Position numbers and translations under genes: made by a program | Assembly: GCA_963383645.1 (NCBI GenBank) | Contig: OY726560.1 | Span: forward strand, 65,465,823-65,529,822 | From: Muscardinus avellanarius | Taxonomy: Eukaryota > Chordata > Mammalia > Rodentia > Gliridae | Reading direction: 5' to 3' | DNA: 64,000 nt | Part shown: one piece after another, positions 1,025 to 49,014 of the stretch | Numbering within the stretch: position 1 is the first letter of the stretch | Layout: the number at the start of each line of letters is the position of its first letter | Notes under the pieces: model-generated | Databases searched by the model: none | The model's input: only the letters and a program-made list of their open reading frames with translations | What the model was told of the DNA's origin: nothing

Positions 1025-1330
1025 GAATGTAATAACCCTATGACCCAGCTATACATTCCTAGGTATCTTTCCAAAAGAATTAAAAATTTATTATTGTGAT
1101 ACTTGCATAGCCAAATTAAGGAATCAATCTAGTGCCCACCAACAAATAAATGGATAAAATAATATGATAAGTATACACAATGAAGTTTTACTAGTCATTA
1201 AGAAGAGTAACATATGCCATTTGTAGAAAAATAGAACTTGACAACATTATACTAAGTGTGATCAGCCAGTCTCAGAAAGTCAAAGATCATATACTTTCTC
1301 TCATATGGAGAAACTATAGAGAAAATAGGA
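1025..1330 (+). mobile_element. Old L1, end of ORF2
   Basis: The stretch matches the well-known layout of the L1 ORF2 3' end: 'atgacccagctatacattcct', 'caacaaataaatggata', and a terminal block like 'catatggagaaactatag'. No open frame of useful length survives, so it is an ancient fossil. It continues into the 3' UTR-like segment that follows. Confidence 0.8.
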
Positions 1331-1900
1331 AAGAAAAGAGACTTTAGATAATTGAGAAGAGTGGCTGGTAGAATATTGGAAGTGGATAGAGAGAGGGGAG
1401 ACAGAGAACTGATAAAAGTCATTCAAATTATGCTATGCCCATGTATAAAGGTATCACTACCAATCTCACTCTGTGTGTGGGGAGGGAGTAGGGAGGGCTG
1501 GGACCTAAAAGGAAGCACATGGAGACCTGTCTGCATGTTTGTACCTGTGCCTTTGAACCTCATAATGTATAATTACAATGCATCAATAAAAGTAGAACAA
1601 AAAGGAAGCTATCTTACTCTTTCACGAAATCATATACCACGGGTGGAAGGAAAAGGGGACGGGTAAAGGAGGCTTGAGAAAAGAAACAGATCAAGTGTTA
1701 TGTACATACCTGAAGGTTTCACTGCCAATCTCACTAACATCTATGAGGAGGTGGGGGGGAAGTAGGGTGGGATCTGGAGGGATAACAAACAAGTGATGTG
1801 CACAGATATAAACCTACCACTCTGAATCTTACTATGCTGTATAATCCTGTATGGATAGAATTATTAAAAGAGCCTATAATAGCTTATAAGACACATGCCT
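1331..1900 (+). mobile_element. Old L1 3' UTR, apparently doubled
   Basis: Two similar blocks follow the ORF2 remnant, at about 1335-1600 and 1640-1870. Each has a GA-rich lead, 'accaatctcact', a G-rich tract, and an end near 'tataattacaatgcatcaa' plus 'taaaa'. The first ends with an AATAAA signal. The terminal motif resembles the tail of the composite elements at 13.3 and 18.5 kb. The doubling could be a tandem duplication or two L1 insertions side by side. Confidence 0.55.
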
Positions 1901-4432: not shown

Positions 4433-5463
4433 AAGGTTTCCATCTTAATTTCCCAAGTGAAATAAGTGGCTGTGTGAAGTAACTCTTCTCTCCTCTGCCC
4501 ACATATGAGCATAGCTCTTTTCTGAGACCTGCCCAGCGCTGTTTCACCTGATTCAATAAATCCAATATGGGTGTCAGTGTTCCTCTCCTTTCCATAAAAT
4601 GATACATATAAACCAATTCTCTGCTGACAAGGAACAAATAAATGTCTTTGATCTATAACCTTGCCTTTATCTTGCCCTTCTCAGAACAGCTTAGGCAGAG
4701 TCTTCCTCTAGGATAATAAATCCATTCATTTGTAAAAGGAAACGCAAACAGGAAACATTTAATACAGAGAGGGAGATCTGATGATAGAATCATCCAGACT
4801 ACACAGAAGGAGGCCAAAGGCTGGTTGATCCTGGCTGCAAATCAATCCTACTGTGAAATGACTTCCAGCCGTCCCCAACTTCTTAGAAGTGGGCTGGGAA
4901 TTTATAGGCTTGAAATCTTCAGTTAGGGACTTGTCAGTCTGGGGTGGACATGGATGGTCACAGGGTATGGAGTCCCGGCTTGCTCACTGTGACTGTTCTG
5001 AGGTCAGGGACAGCTGCCTTGTGACCTGACAGACAGAGATGGCTCCTTCATCTCTGGAGATGGTCTTTCTGATCTGCCAAATGAACCAGGCTTGTTGAGG
5101 GGTCAAATTAGATAAAAACACACATGTACGCCTTTGGTAAGATTGATGTATAATGCCAAAATCAATCTAGCATAAAAAGTACTTTACAGATTAAAGGCCT
5201 GAAAGATTTGTGTATGTTATTCCTGAAATACTTTTTTAAAAAGTCTTATTCTTTTTTTTTTTAAAAAAAAGTCTTATTCTTATATAACCTGGAAACACAA
5301 AGATATTTATTTCTCTTTAAAGCATTATCAGGAAGGTAATCACTTATTATGTCTCAAAGGCATTATAATGCTGCAGATAGCAGGCATCAGATCTTTCTAA
5401 TACGCATATAATACTTTGATCTGATATTTTGGATCTCTGTCAGTGTTTTCATATTATCTTAGA
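4433..5463. other. No recognised feature; small tandem duplication
   Basis: There is no gene or repeat I can name. A short imperfect tandem duplication lies at 5231-5280: two copies of a T-run, A-run and 'gtcttattct'. Confidence 0.5.
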
Positions 5464-5689: not shown

Positions 5690-5920
5690 GCTATCTGATT
5701 TTTTTTTTTTTTTTGCAGTACTGGGGATGGAACCCAGGGATATTCTACCTCAGAGCTACACCTCTAGTTCTATTTTTTATTCTTTAGTTTGAAACAGGGT
5801 TTCACTGAGTTGCGAAGGACCTCACTAAGTAGCTGAGGCTGGCAGCAAACCACAATTCTCCTGTCTTAGCATCCTAAATGCTGGGATTACAAGCCACATA
5901 CCCAGTGCTATCTGATTTTT
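5690..5920 (-). mobile_element. B1-dID SINE with TSD
   Basis: The insertion occupies about 5704-5906 and is flanked by the direct repeat 'gctatctgattttt' (5690-5703 and 5907-5920). The B1 head is slightly shortened ('aagccacatacccag'). The right-hand duplication overlaps the start of the large inverted repeat by three bases. Confidence 0.92.
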
Positions 5921-6060
5921 AATATAATTATTTGAGTATAAAGAGTGTGAGAATCATTGGGTAACTGAAGGCTGAAAAGAAAACCATTGCCTAGTGATGT
6001 CAATGACATGCAAAAACAACTTTCTCCTGAAGCTGTCAAGGCAAATATGAAAGGCATAGC
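5918..6060 (+). repeat. Left arm of perfect 143-bp inverted repeat
   Basis: Every base of this arm is the reverse complement of 6426-6568; I compared both arms in full and saw no mismatch or gap. The arm starts inside the target duplication of the preceding SINE and ends at 'aaaggcatagc'. It contains no repeat family I recognise. Confidence 0.97.
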
Positions 6061-6425
6061 ATTTTCAGGTACTTCTTACTGTTATAGACATGGTATGGTA
6101 CAGTGCTTCTCCAACTTTGGTGAAAGGCTGGTTTCTGTTTTATTTCCAGTTTGTTGTAGATCAATACTTTTTTCAAATGCAATTAGAATGTGTGGTCATG
6201 TCAAATTGCTGTAAGAGTCATGATTGCTTATTCTCACTATCTCATTGGGCACCAACACAATACACTTGCCATCTTTCTTGGCTGCCCGGTATCTAAACTG
6301 TCTTTTCAGGTTTGGAGAATTTGCAGTGTCCTGAAACAAGGATCTATTCCAGAAGCTAAAAAGGTGAGCTACCTGAATTCCCAAGGCTTCTTTGCACCTA
6401 AAATATGGGCACATAAACCAACAAA
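6061..6425. other. 365-bp spacer of the inverted repeat
   Basis: Unique sequence between the two arms. It carries several short overlapping open frames but none resembles a known family. The block around 6104-6150 ('ttctccaactttggtgaa') faintly recalls DNA-transposon ends, but not enough to name one. Confidence 0.5.
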
Positions 6426-6568
6426 GCTATGCCTTTCATATTTGCCTTGACAGCTTCAGGAGAAAGTTGTTTTTGCATGTCATTGACATCACTAGGCAAT
6501 GGTTTTCTTTTCAGCCTTCAGTTACCCAATGATTCTCACACTCTTTATACTCAAATAATTATATTAAA
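6426..6568 (-). repeat. Right arm of perfect 143-bp inverted repeat
   Basis: Exact reverse complement of 5918-6060, beginning 'gctatgccttt' and ending 'ataattatattaaa'. Identity stops abruptly at both ends. Past 6568 the sequence diverges to 'tcaaagactctag', so no trace of the neighbouring SINE was copied. Confidence 0.97.
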
Positions 6569-7287: not shown

Positions 7288-8640
7288 TTTTATTTTATTT
7301 ATTTATTTATTTATTTATTTTTTAGTTCTTTGAAGAATTTTATTTGTATTTTTTTCTTTTAACAATTTTTTTACTGAACATAAATAGTATACATTTAAAC
7401 TATATTTGGTGCCCTCTCCCCCCCGCCCCGGTTTTCCCTTCCCCCCTCCCACCAATGGTTGTCCAGGTTAACCATGTCTTATTCATAATATTACACATGT
7501 TCAGATGTAGACCCTCATTAATCAAGATCGGCCTTCCTCCTCTCCTATCTTTCCATTCAAACTTAGCTAGTATTTCCCCTCTAATATCTGGAGTCCCACT
7601 GGTATCCTTTGTGTTTTCTAGTTTGGGCATATTAGAGGAAACATATGTATCTTCTCCTTCTGTGCTTGGCTGATCTCACTTAACATAATGTTCTCCAGGG
7701 CTTTCCATCTTCTTGCAAATGATATAATTTTGTTCTTCTTTATGGCTGAATAGAATTCCATTGTGTGTATTTCCCACAGTTTTGCTATCCATGCATCTGT
7801 TGATGGTGATCTGGGTTGGTTCCATTTTTTGGCTATTACAAATTGTGCTGCTATGAACATAGGTATGCATATGTTGCTGTATTTCTCTGAATTCAACCCC
7901 TTTGGAAAGATACCTAGGAGTGGTAGAGCTGGATCATATGGTGGATCTATTCCCACCTTTCTTAGGAATCTCCACACAGATCTCCATAGTGGTTGAACTA
8001 GTTTGCATTCCCACCAACAGTGTAAAAGAGTTCCTCTTTCCCCACATCCTCGCCAGCATTTGTTGTTGTTTGATTTCTTTATGCTTGCTACTCTGACTGG
8101 GGTTAGATGGAATCTCAGTGTAGTTTTGATTTGCATCTCCCTGATGGCCAATGATGTAGAACATCTTTTCATGTATCTATTGGCCCTTTGTATCTCTTCT
8201 TTTGTGAAGTGTGTATTTAGTTCATTTGCCCATTTCTTGATTGGGTTGTTTGTTTTGCCAGTGTAGAGTCTTTTGAGCTCTTTGTATATTCTGGATATTA
8301 GCCCCCTATCAGAATGGTGGCTGGTAAAGATCCTTTCCCATTCTGTCGGCTTCCTCTTTAGGTTATTGATAGTTTCCTTTCATGAGAAGAAACTTTTTAG
8401 TTTGATGCCATCCCACTTGTTTATTCCTGCTTTAATTTCCTGAGCTTTGGGGGTTTTGTTGAGAAAGTTATTGCCTGTGCAAATATGTTGTAGTGTTGAA
8501 CCTATGCTCTCCTCTACTAACTTCACAGTCTCAGGTCTAATTTCTAAGTCTTTGATCCATCTTGAGTTGATTCCTGTGTTTGGTGAGATATAGGGGTTTA
8601 GATTCATCTTTTTACAAATGGTTAGCCAGTTCTCCATTTT
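7288..8640 (-). mobile_element. 5'-truncated L1: end of ORF2 plus 3' UTR
   Basis: Read on the minus strand this L1 starts abruptly at about 8640 inside ORF2, runs through the ORF2 C-terminus (stop at 7618), then the 3' UTR with its polypurine tract (complement at 7415-7460) and an A-rich tail (TTTA run at 7288-7322). About 1.35 kb is present, the typical outcome of incomplete reverse transcription. It is among the better preserved L1 copies here. Confidence 0.93.
7618..8637 (-). pseudogene. L1 ORF2 C-terminal fragment
   Basis: This is the C-terminal end of the L1 endonuclease/reverse transcriptase polyprotein. The frame reads from 'ENWLTICKKMNLNPY' (8637) to a stop near 8380, then resumes in the same frame from 8172 to 7618. 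The segment includes '[15 protein letters not shown]' and the cysteine motif CX3CX7HX4C ('[18 protein letters not shown]'), with all four ligands present, and '[12 protein letters not shown]'. The endonuclease and catalytic RT domains are absent because the insert is 5' truncated, and an internal stop breaks what remains. Confidence 0.93.
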
Positions 8641-13060: not shown

Positions 13061-13194
13061 AAAATAATGATTAAAATAGCTATCAGGCAAAGTAATTGTA
13101 ATGTTAGAGAGATACAGTATATAAATCCCCTAATATTTTTATCTCATGTACAATAGTTCAAAAATAAAAAGCTACTCATATTAAATATAATGAA

Positions 13195-13337
13195 ATGAGC
13201 CAGGCTTGGTGGCACATGGTCATAATCCCAGCATTTGGGAGGCGGAGACCAGAGGATCAAGGTTCATGGACAGCTTCAACTAGTTAGCAAGGCCCTTTGC
13301 AACTCAGTGAGACCCTGTTTCAAAAATAAAATGACTG
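13195..13337 (+). mobile_element. B1 half of SINE, 3' end cut by composite element
   Basis: It runs from 'gagccaggcttggtggcac' to 'gagaccctgtttcaaaaat'. The ID half is missing; the sequence passes into the target duplication of the composite element and, beyond that element, into an L1 fragment. The L1 therefore probably inserted into this SINE's linker before the composite element arrived. Confidence 0.85.
13322..13337 (+). repeat. Left target-site duplication of composite element 1
   Basis: The 16 bases 'aaaaataaaatgactg' are repeated exactly at 15963-15978. The A-rich start fits an L1-endonuclease cut. Confidence 0.95.
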
Positions 13338-13705
13338 GAGGAAGGACCCCGGGCCCCCGACCATGGGCGGGTGGTCAGGCACCGGAGGGGCGCCCCTAGG
13401 CGACCCCCCTCTCCACCCAGAAGGACCCTGGGACCCCCCCCCGACCCTGGGCGGGTGGGCAGGCGCTGGCGGGGCGCCCCTAGGCGACCCCCCTCTCCAC
13501 CCGGAAGGACCCTGTGGTTCGGGACCTCTGGGCCCCTGACCCTGGGCAGGTGGGCAGGCGCTGGCGGGGCGCTCCTAGGCGACCCCCCTCTCCACCCGGA
13601 AGGACCCCATGGTTCGGGACCCCTGTGCCCCCGACCCTGGGCAGGTGGGCAGGTGCTGGCGGGGCGCTCCTAGGAGACCCCCGTCTCCACCCGGAAGGAC
13701 CCTGT
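13338..13705 (+). repeat. 5' GC-rich tandem units of composite element 1
   Basis: Units begin with 'ggaaggaccc'-like motifs at 13340, 13419, 13503, 13598 and 13693, giving periods of 79, 84, 95 and 95 bp. Each unit holds 'gggcgggtgggcaggcgc'-type and 'cgacccccctctccaccc' blocks. The two longer units add a 'ggttcgggacc' insert. Their position at the 5' end and their GC boxes suggest a promoter role like the mouse L1 monomers; this is inference. Confidence 0.9.
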
Positions 13706-14285
13706 AAAAAAGGAAAAGAAAAAGAAAAAAGGAAAATATTGGAGAGGGGTCAAGGAGGTGGCGGATGCCAGGATACTGGAGATGCAGACAAAACTTATCC
13801 AAATGAACTGGAATTATTGGAAAAATTCCCCTCTGAGGAGAACTGCTTCTTCTCTACATTGTTAAGAATCTTGGACATCACCTGTAAGGAGAGAGACTTT
13901 AGCGGAGACCAAGGAGAAAGGCGGTGCTGAAAGCGGTCTCCACGTTGGCGGTGGAGAATTGTATTCAGGAGAAGCAGAAATTGGAGCCTACCAACCTTAT
14001 TTATTTATTTTCTTTTTTTTGGAGAAATTACACCAAAGGGTGAATGCTACCGTCTCGCATACTTAGGAAGATTGGACAACATTCAGAGTGAAAAGAGAGC
14101 TTGGGAAAGATTTGAAATGGTGGAGGCAGTGGCAATGACAGTGGCCAGTACTCAGGGGAGGCAGAGATCTGATATATTACACCTGGAACTTTTAAAGTAA
14201 TGACCCCAGAGGCAGAATGCTACCACCACCACGCACCCTCGAGAATGTGGGACAAATAGTTGGGCGAAGAGGGTGCTCGGATTAG
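13706..14285 (+). other. Unique middle module of composite element 1
   Basis: It starts with an A/G-rich run ('aaaaaaggaaaagaaaaag') and continues through moderately GC DNA without an intact long frame. About 14,020-14,150 aligns, with many differences, to about 18,535-18,680 of the second element (for example 'ggacaacattcagagtg' against 'tgacaacatgctaagtg'), so it is a true part of the family. Its origin is unknown to me. Confidence 0.7.
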
Positions 14286-15545
14286 AGCCTGCCAAGAGGT
14301 AAGGCCGGTGACGAACACAGCAAAGCTGGGATCGGAGCCTGCCGTGAGGCAAGGCCGGTGCTGCGGCCTCCGAGGCTGGGATTGGAGCCTGCTGAGGTGT
14401 TAGGCCAGTGCCGGTGCCAATGGCCGGCATCGGAGCCTTCCGTGAGGCAAGGTCGTTATTGAGGCCTCCGAGGCCAGGATCAGAGCATGCCGAGGGGTTA
14501 GGCTGGTGCTGGGGCCAGCGAGGCCAGAATCGAAGCCTGCTGTGAGGCATGGCCGGTGCTGGAGCCTCCGAGGCCGGGATCAGAGCCTGCCGAGGGGTTA
14601 GGCCGGTGCCGGGGCCAGTGAGGCCGGGATTGGAGCCTGCCATGAGGCAAGGCCGGTGCTGGGGCCTCCGAGGCCGGGATCGGAGCCTGCCGAGGGTTTA
14701 GGCCGGTGCTGGGGCCAGCGAGGCCAGGATCGGAGCCTGCCGTGAGTCAAGGCCGGTACTGGGGCCTCCGAGGCCGGTATTGGAGCCTGCCGAGGGGTTA
14801 GGCCGGTGCCAGGGCCAATGAAGCCGGGATTGGAGCCTGCTGTGAGGCAAGGCCGGTGCTGGGGCCTCCGAGGCCAGGATCAGAGTCTTCCATGAGGCAA
14901 GGCCATTATTGAGGCCTCCGAGGCTGGGATCGGAGCCTGCCGAGGGGTTAGGCTGGTTACTGGGGCCAGCGAGGCCAGGATCGGAGCCTGCTGCGAGGCA
15001 AGGCCGGTGCTGGGGCCTCCGAGGCCGGAATCGGAGCCTGCTGAGGGCTTAGGCTGGTGCCGGGGCCAACGAGGCCGGGATCGGAGCCTGCCGAGAGGTC
15101 AGGCCGGTGCTGGGGCCAGTGTGGCCGGGATCGGAGCCTGCCGTGAGGCAAGGCCGGTGCTGGGGCCAGCGTGGCCGGGATCGGAGCCTGCCATGAGGAA
15201 GGCCGATGCTGGGGCCTCCGAGGCCGGAATCAGAGCCTGCTGAGGGGTTAGGCCGGTGCCGGGGCCACTAGCCAGCATCGGAGCCTTCCGTGAGGCAAGG
15301 CCGTTACTGAGGCCTCCGAAGCCTGGATTGGAGCCTGCCAAGGGGTTAGGCCGATGCCGGGGCCATCGGCTAACATCGGAGCCTCCCATGAGGCAAGGCC
15401 ATTGCTGGGGCCTCCGAGGCCGGGATCGGAGCCATCTGAGGGGTTAGGCCAGTGTCAGGGCCAGCGAGGCCAGAACCGGGGCCTCCCATGAGGCAAGGCT
15501 GCTGCTTGAGCCAGCGAGGTCTGATCAGTCCACCGGGTAGCCAGG
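14286..15545 (+). repeat. VNTR of about 50-bp units, composite element 1
   Basis: Two alternating 50-bp subunits: one with 'ggtgctggggcctccgagg' and ending 'cctgccgaggggtta', the other with 'ggggccagcgaggcc' and ending 'cctgccgtgaggcaa'. Together they form a roughly 100-bp higher-order unit repeated about twelve times, with some local departures from strict alternation. The 50-bp period is not a multiple of three, so the long proline/alanine-rich frames on both strands drift through all phases and are not genes. CpG density is high. Confidence 0.93.
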
Positions 15546-15962
15546 CCATAACTGGGGCCGTCAAGAATGGGATCGGTATTTTCAATGCGGCATGCACAGA
15601 GAAATATTGCAGAAAATTAAAACCAGATGCTTCCCCTAATCAGCAATAACTAGGAGGAAAGGGGCAATAGGAAGTGGTCGAGCTATAGAAAGGGCCCTAT
15701 AGTGAATCAATTAAGGTGACCAATCAGAGGGTATGGAATAGGGGAGGATGGAGCCTCTTTAAAAAGCAGGAGGTACATAAACATATGTATCAAAGTTAGT
15801 CACCAAACAAGCATGGGATCGAGGGAGGGGGAGGGAATGGGATGGGGACTGGATGAGGGCTAATTGGATGATGTGTGCTTGTATATCCTCTCAAGTCTTA
15901 TATTCCAATGTGATGTATGATTATAATGCACCAATAAAAATAAATTTAAAAAAATAAAAATA
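15546..15962 (+). other. 3' module and A-rich tail of composite element 1
   Basis: It holds 'gaccaatcagagg' (CCAAT context), 'cctctttaaaaagc' (TATA-like), a G-rich stretch 'ggagggggagggaatggg', and an end 'ataatgcaccaataaaaa' with AATAAA at 15933. The box order would suit an LTR (U3 boxes, R, polyA), but the G-rich tract and terminal bases equally resemble an L1 3' UTR such as the one ending near 1591. The same module ends copy 2, and a piece of it stands alone at 46205-46425. Confidence 0.85.
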
Positions 15963-15978
15963 AAAAATAAAATGACTG
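15963..15978 (+). repeat. Right target-site duplication of composite element 1
   Basis: Exact copy of 13322-13337. Confidence 0.95.
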
Positions 15979-16235
15979 TAGCTCCTCCATTAATCAACCC
16001 CTGCCTTCTTCCTCTCCTACTTTTCCATTCTAGCTTTGCTTGTTTGGGCATATTAAAGCAAAACTACATTCAAATATGTGTAAAAGTATGAACGTAGCAT
16101 GGTTAACATGGACACACGTTGTTGGGAGAGAGAGAAGAGGAAGGTGGGGACAGGGCACCAAGCACAGTCTGAATATATGCCATTTTCAATAAGATCCACA
16201 TAAAAAATAAATTTAAAAATAGAAAAAATATTTTA
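15975..16235 (+). mobile_element. 5'-inverted L1 3' end
   Basis: About 15975-16055 is the L1 3' region in minus orientation ('gtagctcctccattaatc' to 'tccattctagctttgc', the complement of the segment near 9650-9705). From about 16058 the same L1 continues in plus orientation ('catggttaacatggacac', the purine tract, 'gccattttcaataagatcc') to an A-rich tail. The junction lies at the shared 'ctaca', a short-overlap twin-priming product. Confidence 0.88.
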
Positions 16236-18511: not shown

Positions 18512-18883
18512 CCAATCCACCTTGAACTTTTGAGGAAATCTACCCAAAAGTAGACTGCTCCTGCCACACATGCTCGGGAATTCTTGACAACATGCTAAGT
18601 GGTAAAAGGGTTTGGGGAGTATCAGAGGTAGCTCTGCATAGCCGGGATGGGCCACCACACTGTGTATTCTGGGAGATATCAGCCCTCATGGCCACCACGT
18701 TCCTCTGCGCGAGCTGGAGGCTAGGGTGCACTTGGAGCAGAGAGCCTGCTCTCTGAAGTAAAGCTGTAGACCTCTGTCTTTGGAGGGAAGATAAAATTAA
18801 TTGCCACTAGTTATTTGGGGGGGGGTCCCAGCTTTTGCAAAAGACATGTACTGCTTTCTTATATTAAAAAAAAAAAATGGAAG

Positions 18884-19078: not shown

Positions 19079-19149
19079 AAAAAAGGAAGAAAAAAGGGAA
19101 CATTTATAGACAACATGCTCACAGTGACAGAGATCAGAGCCCGATGCAC

Positions 19150-19415
19150 AGCAAGGCCGGTATCGGGACCTCTCAGGACAGGATAGGAGCAAGGCTGGTA
19201 CCGGGGCCTCTGAGGCCAGGATAGGAGCCTGCCGAGGGGTGAGGCCGGTGCTGGGGCCTCCAAGGCCGGGATGGGCGCCTGCCTTGTAGTGAAGCCATTG
19301 CTGGAGCCAGCAAGGTGGGGATAAGAGCCTGCCATAAGGTAAGGCTGGTGCTGGAGCCAGCTAGGCTGGAATTAGAGTCTGCCGGGTGGCCAGGCCGGTG
19401 CCGGGGCCTTCAAGA
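19150..19415 (+). repeat. Short VNTR of composite element 2
   Basis: Five to six units of about 50 bp like those at 14286-15545, for example 'gtgctggggcctccaagg' and 'gcctgccgaggggtga'. CpG sites are partly decayed. Confidence 0.9.
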
Positions 19416-19794
19416 GAGGGATCAGAACATTCAATGCAGCATACACAGAGAAATATCACAGAAAATAAAAAATCAGATGCATTCCCTAATATGCAAAAAC
19501 TAAGAAGAAATGGGTAATAGGAGGAAATCTAGTTGAAGAAAGGGCCCTATGGAGGAGCAATTAAGGTGACCAATCAGAGGGGATGGGAGGGGGGAAGATG
19601 GAATCTCTTTAAAACACATGATGTACTTAAACAAATATATCAAAGTTAATCACTAAATCAAGAATGGAATCGAGGGAGGGGGAAGGAATGGGATGGGGAT
19701 TGGAGGCTTGTATATACTCACAAGTCTTGTATTCCATTGAGATGTTTGACTACAATGCACCAATAAAAATATATTAAATAATAAAAAATTTAAA

Positions 19795-19809
19795 AAATAG
19801 AATAACTAT
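19795..19809 (+). repeat. Right target-site duplication of composite element 2
   Basis: Exact copy of 18497-18511. Confidence 0.93.
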
Positions 19810-20130: not shown

Positions 20131-22164
20131 AAACACACCAACAAAAAATAAAAACTTGGCTTTGGCATGTTCCACTGAAGGATCCTCTGAGTAGTCTGGA
20201 GCACAGGTGGTGGTAACATGAACAATTTCAACATATTCTTGACTCTTGGTGTACCCAGGTCAAGAAGACTGAAAAACAGCTAACCCAAACACCTGGAAGT
20301 CTAGCTCCTTGCCTTCTTGACTTTTCTTGATTCTGAACTATCCCACTCTGAGCCAAAGAGTCCTGAGAGAAGCCAAGTGTGTTCAGCATAACAAAGCCAC
20401 TAGCTTTTAGTAAGTCTACCCACAATCTTTCTCTGCTTTACTCCTGTCCAGCTTTGGGAAACATAATCAAATACATTATGTGAGCCTTTTACACAAGGTT
20501 TCATCAGATCAAATATCTCTAGATAATGTAATATTTTCCAGTTTTCTAGATAGAGGCCAACATAAACCCTTTTCTTCTAGATCTAACTGGAACTGAAACT
20601 TTGTTTGTGGAAAGAGTATTGCGTAACTATCAGATAATTTTTTTCCCACAGGCTTGCTACCTAATCCAAGTTCTGTACAAAAAAAAAAAAAAAAAGGCCA
20701 ATATCAATTTTGATTTGGGAAGTAGCTGAACTAGAGAATAAATACATATGAAATATTACTGGAGGATAGACTTCTAGGAAAGACAATGTTGCTAAGAAGC
20801 CATTTCCTTTTTTCATTTTAAGAGCTATTTAAAGAGCCCTTTAAAAGTTAAGTCAAGTATAGTACTATTCAGCAACTTGGCTCATGTCTCTATTTCAACA
20901 GGACACAAAGGAGGCCTCTGATGAGCCTTTTCCAGTTTTCTTAATATAAAACCAGTTAATGATACAAATTTGCCCTTAGAATTCTCAGGAAGCATAACTA
21001 ATAACATTCCTGGTAAGTACTACATGAATATAAAAGATAAATATGCTGAGCACGAACACCCGAAAACAATAGAAAATTATTTCATTATCATCAAAAATGT
21101 TGTGTTCTTGGTTTTGTTTTGCTTTGTTTTTATTATTGTGTTTGAAATGTGAAGTTCTAAAAGGTAACTTGGTTTTACAAAAAAAAATACTAGAAATAGT
21201 ATATTTTATAGAAGACACTTTCAGTGAATTTTAACTTTCAATTTTTTTTTAACTTTTATAGATTTCAAAGCCCTCCATTCAAACAGACTTTTTCTATTTG
21301 TCTTCACCACTTAGAGAATGTAAAGTTCAACGATATTAACACCTTTCTAAAGGTTCAAATCAAACATCTTCATAGCCAAGCCTCTGCCTGAAAAGAGAAC
21401 CACAAAGCTCATAAGATTGCACGTATCTCAGATGGCTTTTTATCCCTTCTGGATATGGGAGGGTAGAGAGGGAAATTTCACAAGGAAAGTTTCCCTGGAG
21501 TAATTAAATTTTGGACTTTGACTCTAAAATAAACCAAAAATAACAGAGATACAATTGGTATTTTGAAATTAAAAATGCTCTATCGTTCAAAACGTTCCAA
21601 AATATTAGCTGAGAGGAAACAGCAATAAATAAAACAAAAATTTTTGGAACTCCTGCTCTAGCTTTCCCATAACACTCCGTTTTCTTCCCCCTCTCACCTC
21701 CTAAGGGACTTTTGCCTCTTGCTCTTCTCAATCCCAAATGGCCTTTCCTGACCTTAAAGGATCTGCTAACTTCAGCAGTACCAGGATCAGAAACTACTCC
21801 CAAACTCCAAGAATGGAATTGGTATCTTAATGGATGAATCATTATAAAGTTATCAAAATACTGGAAAATATAGCTCAGAGAAAATTGCAGCAAATGACTT
21901 CATTTTTGTATAGTGTTCATTACATTTGTACCTCATCTATGCAAGCAATACCTCATTAATTACTCCCAGGACTTCTACAGGATACTGTCCAAAGGCATAT
22001 ACTCTGTGCCTTTTCTCAGCCCACCCAGAAATATCTGAAACACAGGACAGCATTTAATAAAAAAAATTACATGAAAAGTTTTAGTTAAGAGAAAACTCAC
22101 ACAATGTAGATGTCATATGAATAAGTAATGTGCCAATAGCCTGTATCAGTATAGTTTTACTATA
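20131..22164. other. No recognised feature; source of the SINE insert
   Basis: Unique AT-rich DNA. Positions 21319-21356 are the reverse complement, with one mismatch, of 38 bases found inside the SINE at 22165-22420. A 17-base A run sits at about 20,680. No gene is visible. Confidence 0.5.
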
Positions 22165-46204: not shown

Positions 46205-46425
46205 ATTTTTTTTAGTTTTTATTTTTTTATTTTTATTTATTTATTTTTTTTATTTTATTGGTGCACTGTATTCATATATCATAGTGGGATACAAACTTTT
46301 GTAGACATACATGCACACATCGCCCAGTCAGCCCCCACCCGATCCCTACCCCATTCCCTCCCCATCCCTCCTTCCCATGCTTGGCTTAGTGGTTGACATC
46401 TAGTATTATAGCAATTTATCCAAAA
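46205..46425 (-). mobile_element. Isolated 3' module like the composite elements
   Basis: Read on the minus strand it begins near 'aagccaagcatgggaagg', has a G-rich stretch and 'gcgatgtgtgcatgtatg', and ends at 'cagtgcaccaataaaa' before a long A-rich tail (complement at 46190-46255). The layout matches the last 180 bp of the elements at 13.3 and 18.5 kb. It lacks the VNTR, so it is either a strongly 5'-truncated relative or the shared source (an L1 3' UTR or LTR). Confidence 0.75.
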
Positions 46426-46639
46426 TTAAAAATGTTAATCTCACATAACAGTTTCCTTTGTCTGATACCAAGCTTTTGATAACTTAAAGATAACATTTCA
46501 ATATTTCTTTTTGCTTTCTTTCTTACCAGAGCATATTTTTTTCTGTTTTTTTAGGTGAAACTATCATATATTCATATATTTATTTTTCAGAAAAAAATCT
46601 ATCCTAATATGGAATATGAATTCTAGATACCCAAAACGA

Positions 46640-47130
46640 TCTTGAAAAAGAACAAAGCTAGAAGATATATATTTTCTGATTTCAAACCATATAAAGCTAC
46701 AATAATTGAAACAGTGTAATACTGTTCTAAAGGCAGATATATAAACCATTGGAGTTAAATACAAGCCTAGAGCTAAATTCTTCCCTATATTGTCAAGTTA
46801 TTTTTGACAAGGTTTCCACGAACATTTGGTGGTGGAAATAATAATCTTTTAACTAAATATTGTTGAAAAATAATAATTACATGGAAAAGAATAAAATTGG
46901 ACCCTTACCTAATCCCACATACAAGTATTAACTCAAAATAGATAAAAGACCTAAATATAAATCTTAAGACTATAAACTTTTAGAAGAAAATCTGGGTCAT
47001 AAAACCTCACAACATTGAAATTGGCAGTGATTTCTTGGTTATGATTTCAATGGCACAGGCAACAGAAGAATATACAAACTCCCTAGAAAATAAAAAAAAA
47101 TATTGTATATCCAAAGACAATGTAAACAGA
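46640..47130 (+). mobile_element. Ancient L1 ORF2 fragment
   Basis: 'ttcaaaccatataaagctac', 'tggacccttacctaatccc' and 'agactataaacttttagaag' are classic old L1 ORF2 landmarks on the plus strand. Many stops. It lies tail to tail with the younger minus-strand L1 at 47.3 kb. Confidence 0.78.
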
Positions 47131-47299
47131 GTTAAAAGTTACTAATAGAATTGGATAAAATATTTCCAAATGCTATATCTGAAGGTATATTAATATTCCA
47201 ACTAGAAATCCTAAAAATTAACAACAATAAAGGCAAACAATACAATTTAGAGATAGGTAAAGACTAACAAAAATAATGAATCTCCACAGATAACCAATC

Positions 47300-48214
47300 T
47301 TAGTTGTCTGTTGAATGGAAAATCTTGTTTCTCTGGTTCTGGTGAGTGTTACCTATTTCTTCTTTGTAGTTAATCTCTTTGAGTATTTTCTCTAGCGCTG
47401 GTTTTGAAGACATAAATTCCTTCAGTTTCTGTTTGTCATGGAAGCTTCTTATTTCTCCATCTAATTTGATAGAAAGTTTTGCTGGATAGGAAATTTTTGG
47501 CTGGAAGTTGTTTTCTTTCAGAGTTTGGAATATGTTACTCCAAGCCCTTCTGGCTCTCATGACTTGGTTTGGGAAGTCTGGAGTGATTCTAATTGGTTTG
47601 CCTCTGAATGTCACTTGGCCCTTTGTTTTTGTTGCCTTTAAGATTCTCTGCTTGGCTTCCACATTGGTCATTTTGACAATTATGTGGCGTGGGGATCCTC
47701 TTCTCCGATCCTGTCTAAAGGGAGTTCTATAAGTTTCCTGGATCTGTGTATCAACCTCTTGCTCTATATTTGGAAAATTTTCTATTACTTCCTTGAAGAG
47801 ATTGTTGATCCCTTTGGTTTCACTTTCTTTTCCCTCCTCTATTCCAATTATTCTTAGGTTAGCTCTCTTAAGATGGGCCCATATTTCTTCCATGTCAGAT
47901 TCCTGCTGTTGGATATTTTTTTCTAGATTAGAAACTATGCGTTCATTTTTGGATTGCTCATCTTCTAAGAGCGAGATTCTGTTCTCCATGTGTTCTAATC
48001 AGTTGTTTGTGCTTTGAATTGAGGCCTTTTCTTCATTAATTGCATCCTTTATCTCTTTTTGGCTCTCTCTGAGTTCTTTTCGAAGCACCTCTATTATTTC
48101 TACAGTTATTTTCCTGATTTGATCTTCTAGAAATCTCTGATTTTCTGTTTTATCGGGTTCTGATGTTGTGGGGTTGTGCGCATTCATTACTCCAGTGTTA
48201 TTCCTCTTTCCCAT
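47300..48214 (-). pseudogene. L1 ORF1 (RNA-binding chaperone), one nonsense codon
   Basis: ORF1p coats L1 RNA as a trimer and acts as a nucleic-acid chaperone in the cytoplasmic L1 particle. The frame spans 305 codons including the stop, near the usual 300-360. Residues about 20-130 have coiled-coil heptads ('ENQRFLEDQIRKITVEII' and 'LLEDEQSKNERIVSNLEKN'). The RRM follows at about 'LRIIGIEEG', and the C-terminal domain shows 'RITPDFPNQVMRARRAW' and 'PAKLSIKLDGEIRSFHDK'. Codon 72 (47,999-48,001) is TGA, inside the coiled coil; otherwise the frame is open. It is thus the best-preserved L1 gene in the window but cannot give full-length protein. Confidence 0.93.
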
Positions 48215-49014
48215 GATTTCGGAGGTTTGTGCCTTCTCTGGGTTCTTCCCTTAGGTCACTATGGCTTCACTTAAGGTGCTCTGGATCTCGAGTCTGTATT
48301 ATCTCAGATCCCACTACTCCTTTACTGGGTTGTATCACAGAGTCTCCGACCCAGGGAGTCGATAGAGGCTGCTTTAAACTATGGGGGGTGCCAGGTTGCA
48401 CGTTCTCCTATGGTGTGATATCTCTGCCACCACCACTCCCTCACTGGGTCAAGTCCCAGGAGGTACAGTACTGGGATTTCTCCTCTGTGGCCCGCAATTT
48501 GACTCACTGTTCTTGAGTATGCAGATGTAGCTGTACTGGACTCGGTGAATTCACTGCTGCTGCCGCCGCCGGTGGCAATATGGCGCCTCTGCCACGCCCT
48601 CAGCCGTGAGGCTGGCGTCTTTTTTCTTCTCTGGTTTTGATTTCCACTCTGAATCCCTGCAGCGTGTGCTGAGCTCGGCCACTGGGAGCTTTAGACGCTC
48701 TCTGCGTGGAGAAATCCCTCCTGGCTGTTCCGCAGTGGCTCACCTTGGCTTGCTGTAGCCGTCCGTTGAGTTCGCCGCTGCCGCCGGCAGTATGGCGCTG
48801 CTGCCGCGTCCTCGGGCGCGTGTGTCTCCTCTGTGGCCCTGAGCTCTGTTCTCAGTCCGCTTTCTCTCTGGAGCCTGGTGGGTTTTTTTTGTTTTTCTGG
48901 TGATGGTGTTTTCTGGCTATGAAAGGCGCTGGTTTTGTGGTAATGGAGATTGGTTGTTAGCGGGGCTCTTAAGCCCTGCTTTTCTCGGTCGCCATCTTCC
49001 CGGAAGTTCTCTAG
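48215..49014 (-). promoter_or_regulatory. L1 5' UTR / internal promoter
   Basis: The GC-rich leader begins (minus strand) with an 'aagatggcgacc' motif near 48,987-48,998, a YY1-type site found at L1 starts. It contains two imperfect repeats around 'gccatattgccaccgg' (near 48,570) and 'gccatactgccggcgg' (near 48,785), about 220 bp apart, and two related blocks near 48,320 and 48,445. Such repeats recall promoter monomers. CpG sites are partly kept. Confidence 0.8.

Follow-up and report, generated by a model that had tools for sequence, protein, structure and literature searches.

The stretch at 13322-15978 on the forward strand of the window (the whole 64 kb of Muscardinus avellanarius DNA analysed) is very probably a copy of a composite element that is dispersed and apparently non-coding, and that was likely transcribed from its own 5' repeats and copied in trans by L1 proteins. 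Between its two TSDs, which these coordinates include, it carries four modules in the order U5-MID-VNTR-T3, followed by an A-rich tail. It stands beyond chance because a second, diverged copy lies in the same window and its parts are found again at thousands of places in the genome.

The element is enclosed by two copies of the 16-mer AAAAATAAAATGACTG, a 5' TSD at 13322..13337 and an exact repeat of it, the 3' TSD, at 15963..15978. An older B1-type SINE (13180-13330, recognized by matches to other SINEs) holds the 5' TSD in its A-rich end. Across the 64 kb and on both strands, the 16-mer occurs at these two sites only, and its last 10 bases occur at the same two window sites and no others. The window has 140 A-rich tail ends, of which two, including that of this element, show TGACTG within the 30 bases examined. 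U5 (13338..13705), the 5' module, was delimited by TRF and unit alignment and comprises four GC-rich tandem units of ~95 bp that are likely promoter monomers (81-104 bp each; 76% G+C; TRF period 95), with two GGGCGG/CCGCCC boxes. MID (13706..14278), the middle module, is ~570 bp of unique sequence. The VNTR (14279..15577) consists of 25 units of ~50 bp, with the array called by TRF at 14285-15519 (period 50, 24.8 copies, 69% G+C) and a degenerate junction unit at its end (15520-15577). Its units are of two alternating types, the type switching in 22 of 24 neighbour steps, a number reached in none of 10,000 shuffles. T3 (15578..15945), the 3' module, is L1-like (ORF2 end and 3'UTR) by alignment to L1 3' ends, contains AATAAA at 15933 and 15939, and leads into the A-rich tail read from the sequence at 15946..15962. 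All these features lie on the forward strand.

This anatomy bears out what a sequence-only reading of the window had described, namely GC-rich 5' tandem units, a unique middle, about two dozen 50-bp units and a 3' module with AATAAA and an A-rich tail, all inside an exact 16-bp duplication. A BLASTN search at 1e-5 gave no second match to MID within the window; the more sensitive nhmmer finds one diverged relative of ~100 bp (18527-18632). Seven of the 23 ORFs listed for MID were scanned and gave no Pfam family above cut-off, the Pfam L1 ORF1 domain was absent from the nine ORFs scanned in the composite as a whole, and a protein search returned no homologue of the VNTR-frame ORF. Rfam, which would show an RNA polymerase III-type head (tRNA, 7SL or 5S) such as SINEs carry, reported no family between 13100 and 16000 at E up to 1, a weak test, as the window's own SINEs were also missed by it. 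Exact-pattern searches gave no matches in viral contigs for words from T3, VNTR, U5 and the tail, and none in bacterial or archaeal genomes for words from T3 and VNTR.

Whole-genome searches with separate and joint modules, which the sequence-only reading had proposed, revealed a dispersed family with thousands of places in the host's own 2.5-Gb assembly, to which all genome counts refer. The type of its SINEs and its L1 ORF1 matches fit a rodent host. A MID 24-mer has 4,901 near-matches and a T3 23-mer 13,386, the latter being a count of T3 places that do not necessarily bear a VNTR; reversed controls returned 0 for both. First-look candidates numbered 1,521 for U5 (40 scored) and 7,303 for the VNTR end with T3 (40 scored), and the 39 others in this second set are 94-95% identical and spread over many contigs. 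The 39 other scored genome copies of MID are 94-97% identical, and T3 has a mean pairwise identity of 96.9% among 21 copies. The copies fetched are biased toward young ones, because the best matches were chosen; the copies comprise one older and one younger set.

The modules travel together. Of the 20 best-matching further copies, 10 show U5-MID-VNTR-T3 in unchanged order, while the remaining 10 break off within the VNTR and retain VNTR-T3 only. The possibility raised by the sequence-only reading against itself, that the modules might nowhere else occur jointly, is thereby excluded. MID lies between U5 and VNTR at all eight MID loci (the window copy is one of them), and all eight U5 loci have MID and then VNTR downstream (window copy included; two of these loci are one place). 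Among the exact matches listed for contig C1, which run to 58.35 Mb, 19 of 47 MID places have the T3 23-mer on their own strand at a downstream distance of 0.98-2.98 kb. Three controls, looking on the wrong side or the wrong strand, each gave 0 of 47, and random placement gave 0.15 on average. By the same measure of exact matches only, the T3 partner is missing at 28 of the 47 MID places and MID at 81 of 100 T3 places. VNTR length varies from 849 to 2,198 bp (17-44 units) in the 10 other copies with all modules. AATAAA lies close to the end in 20/20 copies.

The family also bears the traits of L1-type insertion: TSD, A tail and 5' truncation. TSDs of at least 9 bp were detected at the copies' own flanks in 14 of 21 cases, compared with 11 of 420 mismatched flank pairs, so that coincidence is strongly disfavoured; a clear TSD is missing in the other seven. 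The TSDs found are 10-17 bp long, and their nick sites are TT/AAAA-like, with T at -2 and at -1 in 10 of 14 each and A at +3 and at +4 in 12 of 14 each.

The second, older copy in the window (19115..19800, forward strand; start estimated, BLASTN beginning at 19132) consists of VNTR units, T3 and an A-rich tail. It is 75% identical to 15348-15980 by BLASTN and has 39 other scored relatives at 80-86%; its best TSD match was no better than control. Upstream of it, with a SINE between, lies the diverged MID-like stretch (18527..18632, forward strand; nhmmer 24 bits), which scores 54-85 against shuffle maxima of 33-49 (11 MID copies, 200 shuffles each) and possibly belongs to this copy. The simpler view that the second copy is merely truncated at the VNTR is weakened by this piece. 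The two window copies lie 3.5 kb apart. Their 1-kb flanks have a single stretch in common per side, 36 bp on the left and ~179 bp on the right, and each was read as part of a B1-type SINE lying there.

Sequence comparison indicates that T3 likely derived from the 3' end of an L1. An old L1 in the window, used as the comparison piece (1107..1603, forward strand; ORF2 end and 3'UTR), is colinear with T3, and the alignment covers most of T3's length. Without its tail, T3 scores 87 against this piece in the second copy and 55 in the first, in both cases more than any of 1,000 shuffles; taken by themselves, the initial ~220 bp of T3 from the first copy do not beat the shuffles (80 of 1,000 reach the score). 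T3 copies score near chance against some other L1 ends, and T3 has no BLASTN match to window SINEs. For both copies, the best two of 298 window chunks taken outside the copies were L1 1107..1603 and the tail of an ORF1-only element. The latter is a separate, HAL1-type L1 derivative (46215..49010, reverse strand; Pfam PF02994, PF17490), with ORF1 encoded at 47300-47998 according to Pfam, and over its final ~150-170 bp it aligns with the T3 end, at 79% by BLASTN. The ORF1-only arrangement with a T3-related tail recurs at 8/8 loci, window locus included. An ORF1-end 25-mer has 19,810 genome places, a figure not taken as the size of this family, since the 25-mer may also sit in full L1s; an exact 40-mer of the antisense middle lies at the expected distance at four of the first 20 listed ORF1-end places.

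A different L1 lineage would supply the proteins. It is represented in the window by a C-terminal part of ORF2 (7618..8379, reverse strand), its own 3'UTR differs from T3, and its genomic copies include long open ORF2 frames. In a protein search with ORF2, the best identities among the 120 rows listed were about 64-65%. Open frames of 1,279 aa hold 34 of 150 scored ORF2 matches, suggesting an autonomous-type L1 partner with apparently intact ORF2 frames. The donor of T3 was likely an L1 lineage distinct from this one. The L1 copies examined carry a 3'UTR unlike T3, so that recognition of a shared tail by the present L1 is hypothetical.

The L1-like T3 could also be taken to mean that the element is a rearranged L1 rather than a composite, i.e. 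a non-autonomous derivative of one L1 with a true monomeric 5'UTR (U5 and MID) and a VNTR in place of the coding part. Rodent L1 5'UTRs are built of GC-rich monomers, and the ORF1-only L1 derivative of this genome ends in a tail related to T3. However, U5 and MID match neither the 5'UTR nor the ORF1 of the window's L1 derivative (the one element compared) and the scanned MID ORFs contain no ORF1 or ORF2 domain, and this origin is rather unlikely. It is highly improbable that T3 is instead a retroviral LTR piece and the element LTR-derived, as could be suspected from CCAAT- and TTTAAAA-like words preceding AATAAA in T3 and from the HERVK10-derived part that SVA carries (PMC5753468). Most of T3 aligns with an L1 ORF2 end and 3'UTR, and its last ~150 bp also terminate the ORF1-bearing L1 derivative. 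TSDs of 10-17 bp likewise exceed those of LTR elements, which are shorter. A local product of tandem repetition or segmental duplication, with GC-rich minisatellites formed in place and a coincidental 16-bp repeat, would fit the two tandem arrays within 2.6 kb and the proximity of the two related window copies, but is next to impossible and, as the whole story, refuted by module co-occurrence and TSDs, given the thousands of dispersed places, the module order and borders kept in the fetched copies, the separate TSD of each insertion and the window flanks that share SINE-like stretches only.

VNTR composites have been termed specific to hominoid primates (PMC4432496, PMC7353768), and the composite described here resembles them in its central GC-rich VNTR, which in SVA, LAVA, PVA and FVA has 36-50-bp units of variable number; the likeness is one of layout. 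As in SVA of great apes, 5' repeats, a middle part, VNTR units of up to ~50 bp, a distinct 3' end and an A tail follow one another, and insertion is L1-type with TSDs of similar length (14-16 bp for SVA in assays; PMC7353768). The SVA-like layout proposed from the sequence holds, with some amendments. The 5' repeats are ~95-bp monomers rather than (TCTCCC)n CT hexamers, with no period-6 array listed within 13322-15978; no Alu-like (7SL-derived) region was found before the VNTR, and by BLASTN neither U5 nor MID matches any of the numerous B1-type SINEs of the window. The 3' end, compared with L1 ends and window SINEs, is L1-like, where that of SVA derives from HERV-K, and the host is not an ape. 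LAVA of gibbons shares with the composite L1 sequence in the 3' part after the VNTR and an L1-mobilized family with subfamilies; it has the CT/Alu-like 5' end of SVA and a 3' part containing Alu pieces (PMC7353768, PMC4432496), whereas the 3' part here is a single L1-like ORF2-end/3'UTR block. The composite is no member of SVA or LAVA, as neither CT hexamers nor an Alu-like part were found. HAL1 (half-L1) is likewise non-autonomous with an L1-type 3' end, but it encodes ORF1p (PMC5753468), a protein whose domain was not detected in the composite.

The composite was likely assembled independently of ape SVA and LAVA and works alike, to judge from its modules; the independent origin first suggested for this lineage is supported with the corrections given above. 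RNA polymerase II would transcribe it with the U5 units as promoter, and the transcript would be polyadenylated at the AATAAA of T3. L1 ORF1p and ORF2p may then capture the RNA, with target-primed reverse transcription frequently stopping early inside the VNTR. Both repeat blocks, U5 and VNTR, presumably change in length. SVA has a few thousand copies in apes, and the 4,901 near-matches of the MID 24-mer suggest that the composite outnumbers it.

No rodent family of this kind was found among the papers listed by literature searches. On balance, it seems probable that VNTR composites arose a second time, in a rodent and from unrelated parts, reaching thousands and perhaps more than ten thousand copies and having an L1-type tail in common with a distinct and abundant family of ORF1-only L1s; these would be two unrelated L1 parasites whose 3' ends are related and which an L1 with a differing 3'UTR now serves. 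If true, a second, independent and large VNTR composite family would be the natural comparison to the hominoid ones, bearing on the old questions of why GC-rich tandem repeats recur in L1-mobilized RNAs, and which of the two, VNTR or 5' repeats, drives mobilization. It would also address whether L1 favours certain 3' ends in trans, a preference made directly testable by two non-autonomous families with related tails alongside an L1 whose 3'UTR differs.

The composite at 13322-15978 (plus strand) opens with four GC-rich 5' units of 81-104 bp each (U5; 13338-13705), followed by a 573-bp middle (MID; 13706-14278), a VNTR of 25 units of about 50 bp each (14279-15519), a degenerate VNTR/T3 junction unit reaching to 15577, and a 368-bp 3' module (T3; 15578-15945) that carries AATAAA at 15933 and is followed by an A-rich tail. 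Every part proposed in a sequence-only reading (5' units, middle, VNTR, and 3' module with AATAAA and A-rich tail) is thereby present, and its estimate of about two dozen 50-bp units agrees with the 25 counted. These units are of two alternating types, with the type changing at 22 of 24 neighbour steps (reached in 0 of 10,000 shuffles), and next-but-one units resemble each other more than neighbours do (0.796 vs 0.726); the VNTR of this copy is a higher-order repeat of about 100 bp. The exact 16-bp duplication described in the same reading is likewise present, and occurs in the window at the two borders of the composite only. The insertion point is the A-rich end of an older SINE, which we take to be B1-type; the SINEs of the window look like squirrel B1-ID elements.

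The composite represents a dispersed genomic family. When the host assembly (2,497,143,478 bases in 104 contigs, with the window on contig C4) was searched module by module, as the sequence-only reading had suggested, each module recurred. The end of the VNTR together with T3 gave 7,303 first-look candidates, and among the 40 scored, the 39 other matches covered about all of the query at 94-95% identity. MID gave 4,028 candidates (39 others scored, 94-97% identity) and U5 gave 1,521 (40 scored, 74-90% identity excluding the window's own copy). Short patterns were also frequent: a T3 23-mer was found with up to two mismatches at 13,386 genome places, a count of 23-mer places rather than of T3 places with a VNTR attached; a MID 24-mer with up to two mismatches at 4,901; and a VNTR/T3 junction 33-mer with up to three mismatches at 1,999, a low bound because the pattern was taken from the window's composite and is two bases off the commonest listed form. 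The reversed-pattern control gave zero for each.

The modules also occur together elsewhere, one of the points on which the sequence-only reading had made its proposal depend. All four were present with conserved order and orientation (U5-MID-VNTR-T3) in 10 of 20 fetched copies, which are the best 20 of 39 other matches; the other 10 start inside the VNTR, which is present in 20/20. Loci found through MID had it between U5 and VNTR in 8/8 cases, and those found through U5 had MID and then VNTR downstream in 8/8 (the window's copy included in both sets; two of the U5 loci are one place). Co-location was further assessed free of best-hit bias from the listed exact matches on contig C1 of the assembly, up to 58.35 Mb. 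Here 19 of 47 MID places were followed on their own strand by the T3 23-mer, at a distance of 978-2,977 bp, with 0/47 for each of the three controls (upstream on that strand, and downstream or upstream on the opposite one) and a mean of 0.15 and maximum of 2 under random placement. Viewed from T3, MID lay upstream at 19 of 100 places. For 8 of the 15 junction places listed in the same stretch, the distance to the exact T3 23-mer is 165 bp to the base, as it is in the window.

Insertion signatures were sought in 21 copies (the 20 fetched and the window's) as TSDs that measure 9 bp or more, contain three or more non-A letters and end no further than 6 bp from the 5' border. Such TSDs flank 14/21 copies compared with 11 of 420 mismatched flank pairs; with the border condition dropped, the figures are 14/21 and 43/420. 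At the inferred nick, T is found at -2 and at -1 in 10/14 TSD-bearing copies each, and A at +3 and at +4 in 12/14 each, a pattern matching the preference of the L1 endonuclease. Half of the fetched copies (10/20) are truncated on the 5' side, as incomplete reverse transcription predicts, and AATAAA is close to the end in 20/20. Array length varies in the 10 four-module copies, from 849 to 2,198 bp for the VNTR and from 88 to 663 bp for the U5 block.

The copies of the family fall into an older and a younger set, because T3 has a mean identity of 96.9% across the 21 copies (a set biased to young copies), whereas that of a second window copy (about 19115-19800, plus strand) is 82% identical to them and its 39 scored relatives, from 9,603 candidates, are at 80-86%. 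A diverged MID relative (18527-18632), which may be part of this second copy, lies about 500 bp upstream of its VNTR with a SINE in between. Compared over 1 kb, the flanks of the two copies in the window share a single stretch per side, which appears to be SINE sequence.

T3 is likely derived from L1, judging by its similarity to L1 ends. It can be aligned to L1 ORF2 ends and 3'UTRs within the window, and among 298 chunks of the window outside the two composite copies, the top two for each of them are the tail of an ORF1-only element and an old L1 (1107-1603, plus strand). The ORF2 end of this old L1 was recognised from its DNA resemblance to a further L1, and the old L1's 3'UTR runs colinear with T3 to a common CAATAAAA end. 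With tails removed, the second copy scores 87 against the old L1 (shuffles 31.2, s.d. 4.9) and the first 55 (shuffles 28.9, s.d. 4.5), with 0/1,000 shuffles reaching either value; reversed-sequence controls score 36 and 38. After removal of the G-rich and terminal part, the second copy scores 70 (0/1,000 shuffles) and the first only 35, matched by 80/1,000. Three other L1 ends gave mixed results with tails removed (z of 4.5, 4.6 and 1.2 for the first copy; 1.6, 5.8 and 11.6 for the second), and a fourth, with tails included, gave z of 0.8 and 3.4.

The ORF1-only element (49010-46215, minus strand) begins with a stretch resembling an L1 5'UTR, continues with an ORF1 in which both Pfam domains of L1 ORF1 are present and a middle of about 850 bp, and closes with a T3-related tail 79% identical to the T3 end. 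Its middle, which apparently includes antisense old L1 ORF2, has no BLASTN match in the rest of the window. ORF1, middle and tail recur at 95-100% identity in 8/8 loci (L045-L052, window's included), these being the loci returned of 40 scored in the tail search. A 40-mer from the middle has close matches at 21,887 places (0 for the reversed pattern), a count of 40-mer places rather than of ORF1-bearing elements. The element belongs to a HAL1-type family whose tail is a relative of the composite's; HAL1 elements are described as coding for ORF1p alone, with several separate origins among mammals (PMC5753468).

A C-terminal ORF2 piece in the window (7618-8379, minus strand) has 150 scored relatives in the genome, and 34 of these fall within open frames of 1,279 aa, roughly as long as an intact L1 ORF2; L1 may therefore still be active in the host. 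In 8/8 L1 loci examined (window's included), ORF2 is directly followed by a 3'UTR of a non-T3 kind; frames are 1,279 aa at locus L059, 2,609 aa at L060 and shorter in the rest. At locus L055, a T3-like tail about 600 bp past the L1 3'UTR is apparently another insertion. Among the best named matches of the L1 ORF1 protein are those from Sciurus, Marmota and Spermophilus at 53-56%, with other matches up to 77%; one bat match scores above these three genera at 43% identity. The ORF2 protein search has no named squirrel in its 120 listed rows. The host is probably a rodent related to squirrels. The window also contains a 146-bp inverted repeat (5918-6063 and 6423-6568), with arms 99.3% identical and about 360 bp apart.

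Alongside the directly observed dispersal, module order, truncation, TSDs, nick sites and variable arrays, a route can be proposed in which the U5 units would act as promoter, given that they are GC-rich and carry GGGCGG-type boxes in 9/10 complete copies and the window's, and the RNA would be polyadenylated at AATAAA and copied in trans by L1 proteins. For SVA and LAVA, the same route is reported on the basis of cell assays (PMC7353768). Among the matches listed by full-text literature searches, no rodent family like the composite was found. In two sources the defining parts of a VNTR composite are CT hexamers, an Alu-like region and a VNTR, the 3' end being HERV-K-derived in SVA and of L1/Alu origin in LAVA; such elements are termed specific to hominoid primates (PMC4432496; PMC7353768). 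The rodent composite has the VNTR; neither CT hexamers nor an Alu-like region was found within 13322-15978. The composite is hence not one of the SVA/LAVA-type VNTR composites, but it works like one.
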